This document shows, in pieces, positions 10,990-42,498 of a stretch of 64,000 nucleotides of DNA. The notes beneath the pieces were generated by a model. The model ran no database searches and was not told the DNA's origin. It worked only from the letters and a program-made list of their open reading frames with translations. Each line of letters starts with the position of its first letter. Within the stretch, counting starts at the first letter, position 1. The stretch is taken from contig JADQBR010000060.1 of the NCBI GenBank assembly GCA_016278515.1, positions 62,001 to 126,000 on the forward strand, in the 5' to 3' direction. A program made the translations under genes and the position numbers. Source of the DNA: Bacillota bacterium. Its GTDB lineage: Bacteria > Bacillota > JADQBR01.

Positions 10990-11718
10990 CTAATCACCCC
11001 GCGTAGCAGTGATAGTCACTGCCTCAAATTTTAATATCTGATTCTTATCTAGTTCAACTTGGTAATCTTTGCGTTTAAAAGCTTTAACATCAAAATAATT
11101 TTCTGAAAGCATGTCAAGCCAACTATCCCAAGAACAAGCCCCACCCATGCACCAGGTCCAAGCGTCAGGATCCTGTTTCATTACATCCGGTATTGATCCC
11201 TGAGTAATAATATCCGCTATAACCAACCGCCCTTGAGGCTTAAGCACTCTAGTTATTTCATCTATGACCTGTTGTTTATCACAGGCCAAGTTTATACCAC
11301 AGTTAGACATTACCACTTCTACACTAGATTTAGCTAGGGGAATTTGTTCCATATCAGCGTGTAAGAATTGTACATTCTTACGCTTCATTCTACGCCTAAA
11401 ACCTATTGCTTGTTCCAGCATTTCTTTGGTAAACTCTAAACCGTATACCCAGCCTCTTTCTCCAACTAAAGGAGAAGCCAAAAAACAATCTAAACCTGCG
11501 CCGCAGGCTAAGTCAAGAACTGTTTCGCCTAATTTCAAATTAGCCTCTAATACCGGATTACCGCAAGGGAAAGACTTTTTTATTAATTCTTCGGGCATAT
11601 TACGTAACTGCTCGTTAGTATATATTTCCGCAGGAATACTGCGGCTTAATTGGCTGCTTACTCCATGCCTTACCACACTTCCATATCTTGCCTGAATTTC
11701 CTTCTTCATCTGGTTCAT
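10990..11718 (-). CDS. SAM-dependent methyltransferase, ArsM-like
   Basis: 242 residues starting MNQMKKEIQARYG; the upstream in-frame extension lacks a good ribosome site. It has a class I SAM fold with motif I VLDLACGAGLDCFLAS and the late strand RVLKPQGRLVIADI. Features shared with arsenite methyltransferases are the CGNP segment, SNCGINLACDK and a Cys pair in WCMGGACSW, which give Cys residues near the positions that bind As(III). Arsenic or other metalloid methylation is therefore plausible but unproven; no arsR or arsB gene is nearby. It is directly coupled to the downstream Crp-family regulator. Confidence 0.78.
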   Translation of the reverse strand: MNQMKKEIQARYGSVVRHGVSSQLSRSIPAEIYTNEQLRNMPEELIKKSFPCGNPVLEANLKLGETVLDLACGAGLDCFLASPLVGERGWVYGLEFTKEMLEQAIGFRRRMKRKNVQFLHADMEQIPLAKSSVEVVMSNCGINLACDKQQVIDEITRVLKPQGRLVIADIITQGSIPDVMKQDPDAWTWCMGGACSWDSWLDMLSENYFDVKAFKRKDYQVELDKNQILKFEAVTITATRGD

Positions 11719-11763
11719 ATCTGCGCATCCTCTCTCCCATAATATCAGCCTTAGATTCTCCCG

Positions 11764-11798
11764 AAAAAAACTCTCGATTTTTTGTCGAGAGTTTTTTT
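11764..11798. terminator. Terminator after the LysM/G5/M23 gene
   Basis: CTCTCGA (11771-11777) pairs with TCGAGAG (11785-11791), with an A-run before and a T-run after, so it can act in both directions. On the minus strand it directly follows the stop at 11801. Confidence 0.9.
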
Positions 11799-11800
11799 GC

Positions 11801-13195
11801 CTATAGATAATTAAACGGACTTTTAGTATTGCCATTCTGCCGCACTTCAAAATGCAAATGAGGCCCTGTGCTTCTGCCAGTGGAACCGACCCCGCCAATT
11901 TTATCTCCGGTATCTACCCGTTCACCCACACTTACGTTAATCCTTGATAAATGTGCGTATCTGGTTTGCAAGCCATTACCGTGGTCAATAAAAATTGCAT
12001 TACCGTAACCGCCATTCCAGCCGGCAAAAACAACTTTACCTTCAGCGAAAGCAAGAACACTGCTGCCAGAACGCGCTGCAATATCTACACCATCATGAAA
12101 GCTCCTACGCCCGGTAATTGGATGAGTTCGCCAACCATAGCTGCTGGTAACTCTTGAACCTTGAACCACACCATAATTACGCTGTCCGCCACGGGAAACA
12201 GTTTGTTTAGTTCCCACCCGTACTATTCGGGTAACAGGTTCAGACAACTTTTTTTCATTTATAACCTTCATAGATTCTTCCAACCCATTATAAAGGGCAA
12301 TATCATAAGTTACTTCTTTTTTTCCCTCTTCACCGGCTTTAACCAACACTTCTTGTCTGCGGTAAAGACTGTTGTCCTTACGGTATTCCGTGTCAAAGGG
12401 AATTGATTCTGCAACAGTGTTCTCCAATTCAATGATAACATCCAGCTTTGGATTAAAAGGATTTATTACCAGCTTGTCCCCTGGATAAATCTTTTCCGCA
12501 TCAGCATCCGGGTTTAACATTTCAAGTTCAGAAACAGCCATATCATGCCGCTTGGCAATCACCCAGAGATTATCACCGGATTTTACTTCAATGATAGTAG
12601 CTTCTTTTTCTTTAGCGTAGACAATTTCTTTAGCCTGATCGATATCTATAAATTCATTGGGTTGCACCATAGTCTTTTCGATATTTACGTTTTGTGCAAA
12701 ATCAGTCCTTTTAATAGATGCGTTCTCATCTATTCTTTTAAGGTACTGCTGCTGATACTCCTTTAATAAACTTTCTAATTGATTTTTATCCCTTACAACG
12801 AAAAGCGGCTCATCATCAACAACCAGTTGATAGCCTTCACTGCCGAAATTTACATCCTTAAGGATAATTTTATTAATGTTTTCTTCCAGCAAACTTCGAT
12901 CCAGTTTAGATTCTCGAACCTCAATGTCTGCCAGTTCCTGAACCGGATAACCTAATTGATCCGATAATTGCTGCTTGTACTGTTGTAAAGCATTAGTAAA
13001 ATCATCCTTATTCTTAACCTGTGCGATTGTTTTGCCACCTACCACAATATCGTATGCTTGGACCGCTGTTTGGTACCATACAAACGAAATCACCAAAATT
13101 ACAGCTAAGATACCTAGTGTCAATTTCGGATTATACGTTAGTTTTTTCCCCACCCGCTTCAACTCCTTGATGATTTTTACCCAAAAGATAGACAT
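11801..13195 (-). CDS. LysM-G5-M23 cell-wall endopeptidase
   Basis: A 464-residue envelope protein. One membrane helix near residues 25-45 acts as anchor or signal. A middle region of about 150 residues is followed by a LysM domain (IIEVKSGDNLWVIAKRHD, about 200-245), a G5 domain (about 250-330) and a C-terminal M23 peptidase with FHDGVDIAA, YAHLS and the PHLHFEV zinc motif. It would cut peptide cross-bridges in peptidoglycan at the cell surface. This domain order is common in Clostridia. It is transcribed alone and ends at a strong terminator. Confidence 0.92.
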   Translation of the reverse strand: MSIFWVKIIKELKRVGKKLTYNPKLTLGILAVILVISFVWYQTAVQAYDIVVGGKTIAQVKNKDDFTNALQQYKQQLSDQLGYPVQELADIEVRESKLDRSLLEENINKIILKDVNFGSEGYQLVVDDEPLFVVRDKNQLESLLKEYQQQYLKRIDENASIKRTDFAQNVNIEKTMVQPNEFIDIDQAKEIVYAKEKEATIIEVKSGDNLWVIAKRHDMAVSELEMLNPDADAEKIYPGDKLVINPFNPKLDVIIELENTVAESIPFDTEYRKDNSLYRRQEVLVKAGEEGKKEVTYDIALYNGLEESMKVINEKKLSEPVTRIVRVGTKQTVSRGGQRNYGVVQGSRVTSSYGWRTHPITGRRSFHDGVDIAARSGSSVLAFAEGKVVFAGWNGGYGNAIFIDHGNGLQTRYAHLSRINVSVGERVDTGDKIGGVGSTGRSTGPHLHFEVRQNGNTKSPFNYL

Positions 13196-37596: not shown

Positions 37597-37741
37597 GAAT
37601 TCGGGGTACCCGCAGGGAGCATATCCAAAACTCTAAGAGCAACAAGTTGCTAAGAGTTTTGCTATACTCGCAGGGAGCATATCCAAAACTCTAAGAGCAA
37701 CAAGTTGCTAAGAGTTTTGCTAACGGTTCTCAACTTGAATT
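37597..37741. repeat. Hairpin-rich block B, duplicate of 36045-36188
   Basis: Two tandem 58-base units (37607-37664, 37665-37722) nearly identical to block A, with one extra A in the stem (CTCTAAGAGCAAC). The flanking GAATTCGGGG and CTAACGGTT are shared too. It lies 89 bases upstream of the LysM start, between that gene and the selenoprotein terminator. Confidence 0.9.
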
Positions 37742-37749
37742 TTTATAAT

Positions 37750-37778
37750 AAAAAAGGCGATGACGTTAATCATCACCA
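37750..37778 (-). terminator. Terminator of the selenoprotein gene
   Basis: On the minus strand GGTGATGA pairs with TCATCGCC (one G-U pair) around TTAACG and is followed by TTTTTT. It lies 15 bases after the TAG stop at 37793-37795. Confidence 0.85.
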
Positions 37779-37792
37779 CCTTGGAAAACTTT

Positions 37793-38074
37793 CTATCTTA
37801 TTCCCGACACCTGTATTTCCTTGAAAAATGCTAAGCCTTTCAGAGAAATATCTAATCCTGCGCCTTGTATTTTAGCTTTCTTATCTAAATAAACATTAAG
37901 ACCGTCGCAATCAAACTTTTTATAATGCATCTGATTCTTGGGAGAGCCTACGGACACGGTAGGCCTACTTTCAGTACCGCATCAACTGCTAAAATGCATC
38001 AAATCAATTACCACGTCTCCCCCTTTTTGCAAAATGTAGTTCTTCGCCTTTTCGCTAATGTTAACTCCAGACAT
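37793..38074 (-). CDS. HesB-like / CC-Se-motif selenoprotein with in-frame TGA (Sec) at codon 31
   Basis: The minus strand reads MSGVNISEKAKNYILQ at its start and reaches MHFSS at residues 26-30. TGA follows at 37982-37984, then CGTESRPTVSVGSP and a further 48 residues to TAG, 93 in all with Sec31-Cys32. The part after TGA stays in frame and is protein-like (DGLNVYLDKKAKI, LKGLAFFKEIQVSGI). The N-terminus with a 'KGG-x-V-x-I-DL...(C/U)CG' layout fits the small HesB-like or CC/Se-motif (seleno)proteins of anaerobic Firmicutes. AGAGAGGTG precedes the ATG, and a promoter, a SECIS-like hairpin and a terminator are all in place. The function is unknown; a redox or metal-binding U-C pair is likely. 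Reading TGA as a stop would give only a 30-residue peptide. Confidence 0.88.
37946..37964 (-). promoter_or_regulatory. SECIS-like stem-loop after the Sec codon
   Basis: GCCTAC pairs with GTAGGC around the loop CGTGTCC, starting 17 bases after the TGA. Bacterial SECIS hairpins lie just downstream of UGA within the coding region, and their apical loop usually has a G-U pair of bases for SelB binding; this loop contains GU. The fit is by eye only. Confidence 0.7.
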
Positions 38075-38129
38075 CAGAAACACCTCTCTTTCGCAAACTA
38101 TAGTATTAACATATTGTTTCCTTATTATC

Positions 38130-38158
38130 ATTGTAAATCCTGTTTACTGCTAAGTCAA
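38130..38158 (-). promoter_or_regulatory. Sigma-A promoter of the selenoprotein gene
   Basis: On the minus strand TTGACT (38153-38158), a 17-base spacer and TACAAT (38130-38135) give a strong housekeeping promoter, about 50 bases before the ATG. Confidence 0.8.
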
Positions 38159-38267
38159 CCTTTACATAACAAAAGCCGTCTTTTCAACAGCTTAAAGCAT
38201 TAGTTAACTTCAATAACGCAGCAATATTGGCAAATTATTATTGCATCAATCAAAATTTCATACTGTA

Positions 38268-40385
38268 TCATAAAATATCTTTTTCATACATTTCTTCCAT
38301 TGAAATTTCAGATTTATCAATTTTATAGTTTAGTTCTTCCTTAATTCTCTGCATCTTCCTCACAATTGTGGACTGATTAACACCTAGAACATCCGCAGCT
38401 TTACGGATACTCCCGTATCGGTCAACCGCCTTTTCAATAATTTGCTTTTCCACTTCTAAAGTTGCCCGTTTAAGAGGCATAATTCCTTTTACCTGTATAT
38501 TTGCATTACTACGATTTTCAAATAGAAAGTCTGGTACACTATCGCCAGTAATCTCTTCCTCAGTGGAAGTTACTATAATCCTTTCTATGACGTTTTCCAA
38601 CTCCCTGATATTGCCCGGCCAATCATATTTTAGAAATAAACTAATTACTTCAGGAGAAAGGGTTTTGTTTAGGCCAAAACGCTTGCAAATATTTTTGACA
38701 AAATGCCTACACAAATGGGGGATTTCCTCTTTTCGCTCACGCAGCGAAGGAACCTTTAGCGGAACTACATTAAGCCGGAAATATAGATCTTGTCTAAACT
38801 CTTTTTTTTGCACCATCATATTAAGGTCTCGATTAGTAGCAGCAATGATTCTTACATCAACATTTCTTGGTTTAGACCCGCCTACTCTAGTTGTTGTCCT
38901 GTCCTGAATTGCCCTTAGTAGTTTTACCTGCAACTGTAAAGGGAGTTCCCCTATTTCATCCAAGAATAGCGTCCCTTTGTGTGCCACCTCAAATAACCCA
39001 GCTTTACCGTTTTTACTTGCCCCGGTAAATGCACCTGACTCATAACCAAAAAACTCGGTCTCCAGCAAGTTCTCCGGAATAGCCCCACAGTTGACAGTAA
39101 TAAATGCCTCCTTCTTCCGGTTGCTATTGGTATGAATATACTTTGCCACTATTTCCTTACCGACTCCCGATTCTCCCAAAATTAATACAGTAGAAACCAC
39201 TTTTGCAACCCTGGAGGCAATATCAAAAACTCCTTGCATAACCTTAGAATTAACAACAATATTTTGCTGTTTCAACAGCTTGTTGCGTAACTCACTTAAT
39301 TCGCTGTGATACCGTTCTGACAGCAGTTGAGATTTATTTAGCGCTTGTTTTAAGCAATTAAGCTCAGTTAAATCCCTAACGTTAATAACTATACTAGTCA
39401 GCAAATTTTCACCATTGTTAACAGGATTAGCCGTTAACAGTAGTTGCCTATCATGAAACTCACTAACCACTGAAACCCTATCGCCAGTCTCTTGAACGGA
39501 AGAAATAAGTACTTTTGGAATTTTTCTTTCTAAAGCTTCAGTTCCAATCTTCTCACCAATTAATTCATCTTTGCTTAAAGAAAGTAACTTCTCAATAGCC
39601 TTATTAGCTTTTAAGACAACTCCAGTAGCGTTAGTGACAAGCACTCCATCAAAAGATGCCTGAATCGTTGTTTCCAACTGATTATACAACTGCTTAACTG
39701 ATGATAGTTCCTTTGATATTGACTCCATTTCCATCAGATCGTGGAGAATCGCCACAGCACCTACAACTTTACCATGACTTATTATTGGTGTTTGGTTTGT
39801 TAGAAAGGATTTTTTACCTTTGCCTACCTCAATAGTTATTTTATGACCAATATTAGCAACCCCGGAATCAGCTACGGCATCTAGCTGCCTTAATATCTCT
39901 TCATAGCTGCCCTGATCATAATATAGCAGCTTCTTAGCTGCTTGATTTGCTACTCTTATCTCTCTCTCTTTTTTGACCGAAATAATACCATTATAGGCTT
40001 GATCCATTATCCCATTAACATATATATTTTGTTCATAAATCAAATCAAAGGCTCTTTCAATCACTAAGTTTTTGGAGACAATGCCCAAAACTTTATGTTT
40101 TTCCCCAAGCACAATAAACCAGCTAACCGACAATCGGGCAGCTTCCTGTATTAACAGGTCATCCGAAACCAAAAGAACATCCCTATTAATAATCTCGTCC
40201 CACTCAAGTTCGCCTTTTAGCATTGGGAAAGTTAGTGTTGCTTGCTCTAGAACGCCAACTAATGTATCATTATCTTTCACAAGCACGATGTGATGTCTAG
40301 TTTCCACCATTAATTTTATAACTGCTTGAATGTTTGTATTAATATTAATTACGGGGGTTGGTTCTACATACTTACCAATTAACAT
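38268..40385 (-). CDS. Sigma-54-dependent activator with CBS and PAS domains
   Basis: 705 residues: an N-terminal CBS-type pair (about 1-120), two PAS domains (about 125-225 and 240-345), a coiled linker and an intact AAA+ domain with Walker A GESGVGKE, the sigma-54 contact loop GAFTGA, Walker B GTLFLDEIGELPL and the R-finger region FRQDLYFRLNVVPL. The C-terminus has a Fis-type helix-turn-helix (GSIRKAADVLGVNQSTIVRKM). It should activate sigma-54 promoters of the nearby catabolic genes on sensing a ligand or nucleotide. It lies downstream of a degenerate paralogue. No -24/-12 site was found by eye. Confidence 0.93.
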   Translation of the reverse strand: MLIGKYVEPTPVININTNIQAVIKLMVETRHHIVLVKDNDTLVGVLEQATLTFPMLKGELEWDEIINRDVLLVSDDLLIQEAARLSVSWFIVLGEKHKVLGIVSKNLVIERAFDLIYEQNIYVNGIMDQAYNGIISVKKEREIRVANQAAKKLLYYDQGSYEEILRQLDAVADSGVANIGHKITIEVGKGKKSFLTNQTPIISHGKVVGAVAILHDLMEMESISKELSSVKQLYNQLETTIQASFDGVLVTNATGVVLKANKAIEKLLSLSKDELIGEKIGTEALERKIPKVLISSVQETGDRVSVVSEFHDRQLLLTANPVNNGENLLTSIVINVRDLTELNCLKQALNKSQLLSERYHSELSELRNKLLKQQNIVVNSKVMQGVFDIASRVAKVVSTVLILGESGVGKEIVAKYIHTNSNRKKEAFITVNCGAIPENLLETEFFGYESGAFTGASKNGKAGLFEVAHKGTLFLDEIGELPLQLQVKLLRAIQDRTTTRVGGSKPRNVDVRIIAATNRDLNMMVQKKEFRQDLYFRLNVVPLKVPSLRERKEEIPHLCRHFVKNICKRFGLNKTLSPEVISLFLKYDWPGNIRELENVIERIIVTSTEEEITGDSVPDFLFENRSNANIQVKGIMPLKRATLEVEKQIIEKAVDRYGSIRKAADVLGVNQSTIVRKMQRIKEELNYKIDKSEISMEEMYEKDIL

Positions 40386-40549: not shown

Positions 40550-42445
40550 CTATAAAAATTTTTCCACGTCATCTTCCCCAATTATCTCACTGGTACAATG
40601 TTGATAAATATCTTCTATAATTCGCTCCAACTGCAAAGCCTCACCATGCCAAGTCCTTTCTATTAGACTCTCCACCGCAGTAGCACTAAATTTTTTAGTC
40701 ACTCCCATTTTGTTATTTAATTTCTTCTGGAATGCCTGAACCATTTTCAGGATATCTTCTTTTTTTTCTTCAAACGTGGGGATAAATATTGGAATTACGT
40801 TTAACCGGTAGTATAGGTCATGCCTAAATTTCCCCGTTCTAATCCTGTCTTGTAGGTCAGTGTTGGTTGCGGCAATAACCCTGGCGTTCACTCTTTGCCT
40901 ACGGGCACCGCCCACCCTTGATACTTCCCCATCCTGTATCACTTTCAATAACTTGACCTGCAATTCTAAAGGTAACCATTCAATATCATCGATAAAAATG
41001 GTCCCATTGTGAGCCAGTTCTAATAAACCAGATTTCTTATATAAATCAGTATCTAAATCATCACTGCCTTCCAAACCAAACAGTTCCACTTCCAATAAAT
41101 CTTGAGGAATTTCCGAACATTTTATAAAAATGAAGGCTCCTTTACTGTAACCACTATTATCATGTATGGCCCTAGCTATTAGTTCCTTGTCCACACCAAG
41201 TTGACTATGAATTAACACGGTGGAATCTACTTGGGCTACTCTTAAAGCTAACTCCAGAATTTGTTTCATATTTGTATCCTGGGATTGAAAGAATTTGGCA
41301 TTCACCTTAGTACGAAGAAAAGATAGTTCTTTTGCATAGCTAGTGGATAATTGCTCCACCTTCTCCAGGCGTTCCTGCAGGTACAATACTTTGCTTACAT
41401 CCCGTACATTTATTACCCATTTTGAAACCTCTTGCCTGCTATCCAATACCGGCGTCAGCAAAATGTGAAGTTTATTACCGTTGAAATTAAAGTATGTAAG
41501 GGATATCGTATTTTGTTTCTCGCACATCATGGTATACAGATTTGAATTAAAAACACCTAATTCAATTAATTCCCTAATGTCTGTTTCCAACAATTTTTCA
41601 GCAGCCAAACCCAGCACATTTAGAGTTGACTTGTTTGCCTTTTCCACTAGCCCTTTATCATTAATAACCAAGATTGCATCTTTTGATAGATTGATGATAG
41701 TCTCCAGCTCATTGTTCAAGTTTTTCACGGTTGTAAGTTCTTGGCAAACATCCTCTATTTCTGAGATATCTTGTATGATACCAACAGCCCCAATCACTCC
41801 ACCATCTTGGACAATAGGAGTCCGATTAGTAATAAACTTTCTTCGACCCACCTGAAACTTTTTACCATACTGCGGCTTTCCTGTCTTCACGATATCTAAC
41901 AAACCTGCCGGAGCCACAACATCTGTTAGAAATTTACCAATAGCTTCTTCCTTAGCACATTTAGCAAACCCTTCAGCCGCCGGATTCATTGAGGTCAAGT
42001 ACCCTTGTGCATCTATTGCAAAAATTCCATTATGTGCACTATTAAAAGTTGCTTCTAATAAGTTCACCCGATATCTTAGGCCATCTAGGTAAGCCTGGTC
42101 CAACTGTTGCTTTGTAATAATGCCCAAAACTTTTTTATCAGAGTTAATAATTGGGCAAACAAGATGGTTTAGCGGCCATACCTCCTCAATTTTTGCATTC
42201 TCATCCAAAACCGTGAACTCTCGCATAAGAAATTTGGTAATGGGTGTAGAAGGATGCATATTATCTAAACCTTCTTTGAAAATGCTTTCCCGGGTTACCA
42301 TCCCTAACACTTCGCCTTTGGCGTCTAACAAGGGCAGTCCCGCTAGTTGACTGTTCAGCAGCAGACGGTATGCTTCTTCTAGTACCTGATCGGCACGCAA
42401 GCAAGTATCAATTTGTTTCATGTAATCTCTGACTTTCGCTGTCAT
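40550..42445 (-). CDS. Degenerate sigma-54-activator paralogue without GAFTGA, Walker A or HTH
   Basis: About 631 residues starting MTAKVRDYMKQIDTC, with the same layout as its neighbour: CBS pair (1-125), PAS (about 130-230), PAS (about 255-355), AAA+-like domain. The ATPase is damaged. Walker A is HSQLGVDKE instead of GESGVGKE, the GAFTGA loop is replaced by LEGSDDLDTDLYKKSG, and Walker B is IFIDDIEWLPL. The WPGNIREL motif is WHGEALQL, and the protein ends without a helix-turn-helix. The frame is long and clean, so it is not a random pseudogene. It may be a sensor or inhibitor that acts on the intact paralogue. The start at 42445 follows GGGGAG; an upstream TTG is weaker. Confidence 0.85.
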   Translation of the reverse strand: MTAKVRDYMKQIDTCLRADQVLEEAYRLLLNSQLAGLPLLDAKGEVLGMVTRESIFKEGLDNMHPSTPITKFLMREFTVLDENAKIEEVWPLNHLVCPIINSDKKVLGIITKQQLDQAYLDGLRYRVNLLEATFNSAHNGIFAIDAQGYLTSMNPAAEGFAKCAKEEAIGKFLTDVVAPAGLLDIVKTGKPQYGKKFQVGRRKFITNRTPIVQDGGVIGAVGIIQDISEIEDVCQELTTVKNLNNELETIINLSKDAILVINDKGLVEKANKSTLNVLGLAAEKLLETDIRELIELGVFNSNLYTMMCEKQNTISLTYFNFNGNKLHILLTPVLDSRQEVSKWVINVRDVSKVLYLQERLEKVEQLSTSYAKELSFLRTKVNAKFFQSQDTNMKQILELALRVAQVDSTVLIHSQLGVDKELIARAIHDNSGYSKGAFIFIKCSEIPQDLLEVELFGLEGSDDLDTDLYKKSGLLELAHNGTIFIDDIEWLPLELQVKLLKVIQDGEVSRVGGARRQRVNARVIAATNTDLQDRIRTGKFRHDLYYRLNVIPIFIPTFEEKKEDILKMVQAFQKKLNNKMGVTKKFSATAVESLIERTWHGEALQLERIIEDIYQHCTSEIIGEDDVEKFL

Positions 42446-42498
42446 ATTCTCCCCGCCTTTTACGCAAATGTTTAGAAACGATGTCAACCTTTAAATGT

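Follow-up and report, generated by a model that had tools for sequence, protein, structure and literature searches.

A minus-strand gene in the window (the whole stretch of DNA analyzed, 64,000 nucleotides from a Bacillota bacterium) is, judging from its sequence, a new member of a known, uncharacterized selenoprotein family, NF041239, with selenocysteine (Sec) directly followed by cysteine (the U-C motif). The in-frame TGA at codon 31 almost certainly specifies Sec, with a SECIS hairpin to direct it. The best overall explanation, to which we give a probability of about 0.8, is a selenoprotein with a SECIS, an A-type carrier fold, and a thioredoxin-linked selenol role. Coding past the UGA, the Sec machinery, the SECIS, the family, and the fold are well supported by comparison of sequences; actual Sec insertion, a thioredoxin link for the window gene, and its substrate are inferred.

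The gene and its family

The frame starts with an ATG at 38074, ends with a TAG at 37795-37793, and comprises 93 codons in the window sequence. The features of the locus are as follows.

38130-38158, minus strand: promoter-like site, TTGACT-N17-TACAAT (scan; consensus match only)
38081-38088, minus strand: ribosome binding site, GAGAGGTG (read from the sequence)
37793-38074, minus strand: predicted selenoprotein coding sequence, NF041239 family, 93 codons (profile match, family alignment, dN/dS)
37982-37984, minus strand: TGA codon 31, predicted to be read as selenocysteine (of the 77 family stretches, 59 have TGA and 14 have Cys in this column)
37979-37981, minus strand: TGC codon 32, the adjacent Cys of the U-C motif (U-C in 17 of 59 TGA members)
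37945-37965, minus strand: predicted SECIS hairpin, GGCCUAC-CGUGUCC-GUAGGCU, loop at 37952-37958 (covariation, codon bias, RNAalifold)
37754-37782, minus strand: terminator-like hairpin, then a T run (scan; consensus match only)

An earlier, sequence-only reading had described this minus-strand frame, with its TGA at codon 31 and the Cys codon that follows, and had remarked that plain ORF calling yields only an opposite-strand frame at 37925-38203. The frame is present as claimed, and the opposite-strand frame is the only one at the locus in the mechanical ORF list. The observation itself is confirmed, and its interpretation as a selenoprotein of the CC/Se-motif family is supported. The sequence-only reading had also proposed a complete single-gene unit. 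The ribosome binding site, whose 3' end lies 6 nt ahead of the ATG, can be read directly; the promoter-like and terminator-like sites are consensus matches from a scan, the promoter-like sites (6 vs 2.7 expected) lending weak support and the terminator-like sites (4 vs 0.5 expected) stronger support. The gene is probably a selenoprotein gene in a single-gene transcription unit.

Other features of the window were noted in passing. Just 3' of the gene, at 37610-37722, are two tandem copies of a 58-bp unit that looks like a REP-type element; its palindromic core (AAAACTCTTAGCAAC..GTTGCTCTTAGAGTTTT) occurs eight times in the genome, often 58 bp apart. Tandem sigma-54 activators are encoded at 38268-40385 and 40550-42487, with a best match to the PrdR model that falls under its cut-off; a CBS domain was detected in the first. 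An arsenite methyltransferase-like protein is encoded at 10990-11898 (best match NF008823, under cut-off).

For family searches, the window protein was queried with Cys written for U. It matches NCBIfam NF041239 ("CC/Se motif family (seleno)protein", Moor_selen_rel) with 82.7 bits (E 1.4e-23), compared with a curated cut-off of 40 bits. The match spans the TGA, covering residues 4-91 of 93 and profile positions 3-90 of 91, and is far stronger than chance would give. A 2026 review (PMC13188914) lists NF041239 in its Table 1 as a predicted selenoprotein in Moorella thermoacetica with the motif CxxU, so this kind of family is already known. The window protein shares its length, a full-length profile match, the TGA column, and overall sequence with the family, but it has U-C (SSUCG) and lacks a Cys at the CxxU position. 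CxxU is common rather than diagnostic, given the 17 U-C members.

NF041239 was found in 89 of 399 genomes sampled from the phylum, most matches having one in-frame TGA, and 77 distinct stretches were extracted for the family alignment. The 59 TGA members counted are all recognized by the family model or by its rebuilt profile. Their partner Cys varies (CxxU in 23, U-C in 17, UxxC in 8, UxxxC in 1, and none within four residues in 10), and hence Sec is the constant element. Eight members carry Sec and have no Cys anywhere in the aligned domain (L056, L057, L058, L059, L061, L065, L068, and L092). Five of the 18 stretches without a TGA in the window's column have one a single column away (divergent members L087 5294-5581, L085, L078, L080, and L064, with SCU, GCU, GTU, and GUV), as though the position of Sec had moved. 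Neither outcome that the sequence-only reading named as refuting it was seen: homologs extend beyond the TGA, and the genome does encode Sec machinery. Relative to the nearest homolog, which is 68% identical to the window protein, dN/dS is ~0.21 (0.24/1.15) for the part before the TGA and falls to 0.06 (0.19/2.99) for the part that follows; the latter value argues that the part after the TGA is under selection as a protein. Contig scans of genomes found nothing with the single sequence P0001 and one locus with a 4-sequence alignment; an alignment of 30 sequences varied too much to be useful for this purpose.

The genome also encodes the Sec machinery that the sequence-only reading had predicted, with selA, selB, selC, and selD all found. 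The tRNA-Sec scores 71 bits, and ARAGORN agrees, with a TCA anticodon; selA and selB adjoin the tRNA-Sec gene on one contig; and selD is present twice, both copies containing a single in-frame TGA (L011 and L012, at G000:C93:13497-14414 and C162:15647-16564). A second NF041239 gene in the same genome has one TGA.

A predicted SECIS hairpin and its possible imprint on the protein

The hairpin was missed in the sequence-only reading. With the U of the UGA as position 1, positions 22-26 form the five core pairs with 34-38 and enclose a loop of 7 nt. The window's own hairpin has a seven-pair stem, the loop CGUGUCC, and an energy of -9.0 kcal/mol. Published rules for bSECIS elements (PMC13188914) specify a G in the first two loop positions, a loop of 3-9 nt, a stem of 4-16 bp, a distance of 16-37 nt from the UGA, and an energy of at most -7.5 kcal/mol; the window hairpin agrees with these constraints. 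Within the window's genome, the exact motif is confined to the two NF041239 genes. When viral contigs were scanned for the hairpin, two matches turned up, neither with a family protein, and both were taken as chance.

What evidence is there that the stem is real? First, in a gap-free alignment of 41 non-redundant TGA relatives, every sequence forms the five core pairs (relatives with standard spacing; three with other spacing or loop were left out). In this set, 95.9% of cells pair across the core and outer pair, vs 89.4% in shuffled and at most 39.8% in slid controls, and two-sided changes number 26 cells vs 6.9 shuffled and 0-9 slid. Second, RNAalifold finds the same helix, with six pairs. 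A synonymous-codon shuffle is not significant in most single genes, and the signal is convincing only when genes are compared. Plain minimum free energy folding of the 50 nt that start at the UGA fails to recover the hairpin (z 0.13). Third, codon choice is biased. The SECIS is encoded within a conserved family peptide, P-[AT]-V-x-[AV]-G, and so protein constraint alone might mimic the stem. However, third codon bases are nearly fixed, which disfavors protein constraint as the sole cause. The Val40 codon is GTG in 57 of 59 cases vs 97 of 433 elsewhere in the same genes, and the Ala/Thr39 codon ends in C in 55 of 55 vs 210 of 478 elsewhere. The GTG preference is absent from genes without a TGA in the window's column.

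The SECIS may also have left a mark on the amino acids. Among 55 cases, residues 39 and 42 are A/A in 32, T/V in 17, A/V in 6, and T/A, which gives an A-C mismatch, in none; that is, Thr39 goes with Val42 and Ala39 mostly with Ala42, as fits base pairing, with Ala/Val accommodated by a G-U wobble. Cys-type members have lost both the 39/42 pattern and the codon imprint. In the reading that we propose, the peptide encodes a near-invariant SECIS, and RNA pairing would therefore couple the two residues. The coupling has a Fisher p of 1.5e-9 with ancestry ignored; on the tree there are only 4-6 independent pairs, ~2 in the predicted direction and none opposite, so the coupling alone is not significant.

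Fold, gene neighborhoods, and possible roles

The sequence-only reading had called the protein HesB-like. As a statement of remote homology this stands; as membership in TIGR01911 or Pfam Fe-S_biosyn it does not. The window protein matches neither the HesB-like selenoprotein model TIGR01911 nor any Pfam model up to E 10, and it has no match to PF01521 (Fe-S_biosyn) at the gathering threshold of 26.3 bits. Weak Fe-S_biosyn matches occur in 13 of 30 NF041239 members, all sub-threshold (best 23.1 bits; best E 9.2e-5). A sequence search of solved structures found no relative. Profile comparison with hhalign aligns the protein to HesB-like TGA selenoproteins with 97.8% probability (E 8.7e-13), Sec on Sec, and to IscA-type carriers with 88%, the Sec/Cys columns again aligned; thioredoxin and reversed controls give ~1%. 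An AlphaFold model built from four sequences has a pLDDT of 85.7 (a single-sequence model, pLDDT 42, was discarded), and its best solved Foldseek matches are E. coli SufA and IscA (2d2a: E 3.7e-4, probability 1.00). Profile comparison, model, and Foldseek together make a HesB/IscA/SufA-like (A-type carrier) fold very likely, and in the aligned models Sec31 occupies the position of the first cluster-ligand Cys. With TIGR01911 proteins, the window protein thus shares remote full-length homology and Sec at the first ligand position, but its motif is UCGT rather than UxGP. With IscA, SufA, and ErpA (PF01521), it shares the predicted fold and first-Cys position, but it is unrecognized by the Pfam model, Sec replaces Cys, and C-terminal Cys-x-Cys cluster ligands are found in neither the window sequence nor the family alignment.

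Gene neighborhoods suggest a partner. Same-strand neighbors within ~170 nt include thioredoxin in six genomes of a single family, a thioredoxin-thioredoxin reductase fusion at two loci, a CoA-disulfide reductase-rhodanese fusion at three, and, at three more, a membrane-anchored thioredoxin-like protein with a CcdA-like protein (identified by eye) after it. Such neighbors occur at 14 of ~60 loci and represent only four family-level lineages; elsewhere, NF041239 neighborhoods are diverse. The window gene itself has a sigma-54 regulator and a LysM protein as neighbors, with no thioredoxin gene adjoining. A helix-turn-helix gene near 13 loci was rejected as a partner because it is on the opposite strand. 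Divergent members L073, L086, L074, and L078 lie beside genes for a CstA transporter (Pfam-tested in L073 only) or a LytS/LytTR-type regulator (called by eye).

The same-strand neighbors lead us to infer that thioredoxin and disulfide-reductase systems service this protein, which would act as a selenol carrier or reductase. SelB would bind the SECIS hairpin, which places its loop 23 nt beyond the UGA, and would bring Sec-tRNA(Sec) to codon 31, with translation running on to residue 93. Thioredoxin or a related disulfide reductase would recycle the product, a small selenol/thiol carrier or reductase, and in the U-C subgroup Cys32 would be the resolving partner. Taken as a claim of its own, the thioredoxin-linked redox role has a little under an even chance of being correct. 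A similarly tentative standing, just short of even, applies to the joint reading that P-[AT]-V-x-[AV]-G, the family's most conserved stretch, owes its conservation mainly to the SECIS that it encodes and that the protein is a single-Sec A-type carrier, now a thioredoxin-linked selenol protein.

Two other roles are unlikely, to about the same degree. One is a Sec-containing iron-sulfur carrier or insertion protein resembling IscA/ErpA, in which Sec would ligate a cluster, perhaps one held jointly by the two subunits of a dimer. The protein resembles A-type carriers in fold, with Sec where they have their first ligand Cys, and the window's own genome has no other PF01521 protein. However, the C-terminal CxC ligands are missing, the four residues on either side of Sec include no Cys in ten TGA members, and the recurrent neighbors are disulfide-reducing systems rather than recognized isc/suf genes. 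The other is a protein for arsenic, mercury, or selenium handling that would bind the metal or metalloid at a vicinal selenol-thiol pair. U-C and C-C sites are indeed vicinal, which does not hold for CxxU, UxxC, or Sec-only members; several members, most of them Cys forms, adjoin ACR3-type transporter, ArsC-like, or arsenite methyltransferase-like genes (Cys or Sec members L077, L075, L069, and L066), yet most TGA members have no such neighbors. That the TGA is a true stop, giving a 30-residue product or marking the remnant of a gene whose Cys codon was lost, is highly improbable given the TGA column conserved across the family, selection that persists beyond it, SECIS covariation and codon bias, and complete Sec machinery in the genome.

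What are the implications for the family and for the reading that we prefer, a SECIS-directed selenoprotein with an A-type fold and a thioredoxin-linked role? NF041239 is widespread in the phylum and has no known function, and its TGA-containing genes escape plain ORF calling. The family itself had already been named; new here are the SECIS, with the mark that it may have left on the amino acids, the predicted fold, and a testable functional link. Together, the fold, Sec at an Fe-S ligand position, and recurrent thioredoxin/disulfide-reductase neighbors would give this family its first testable role.
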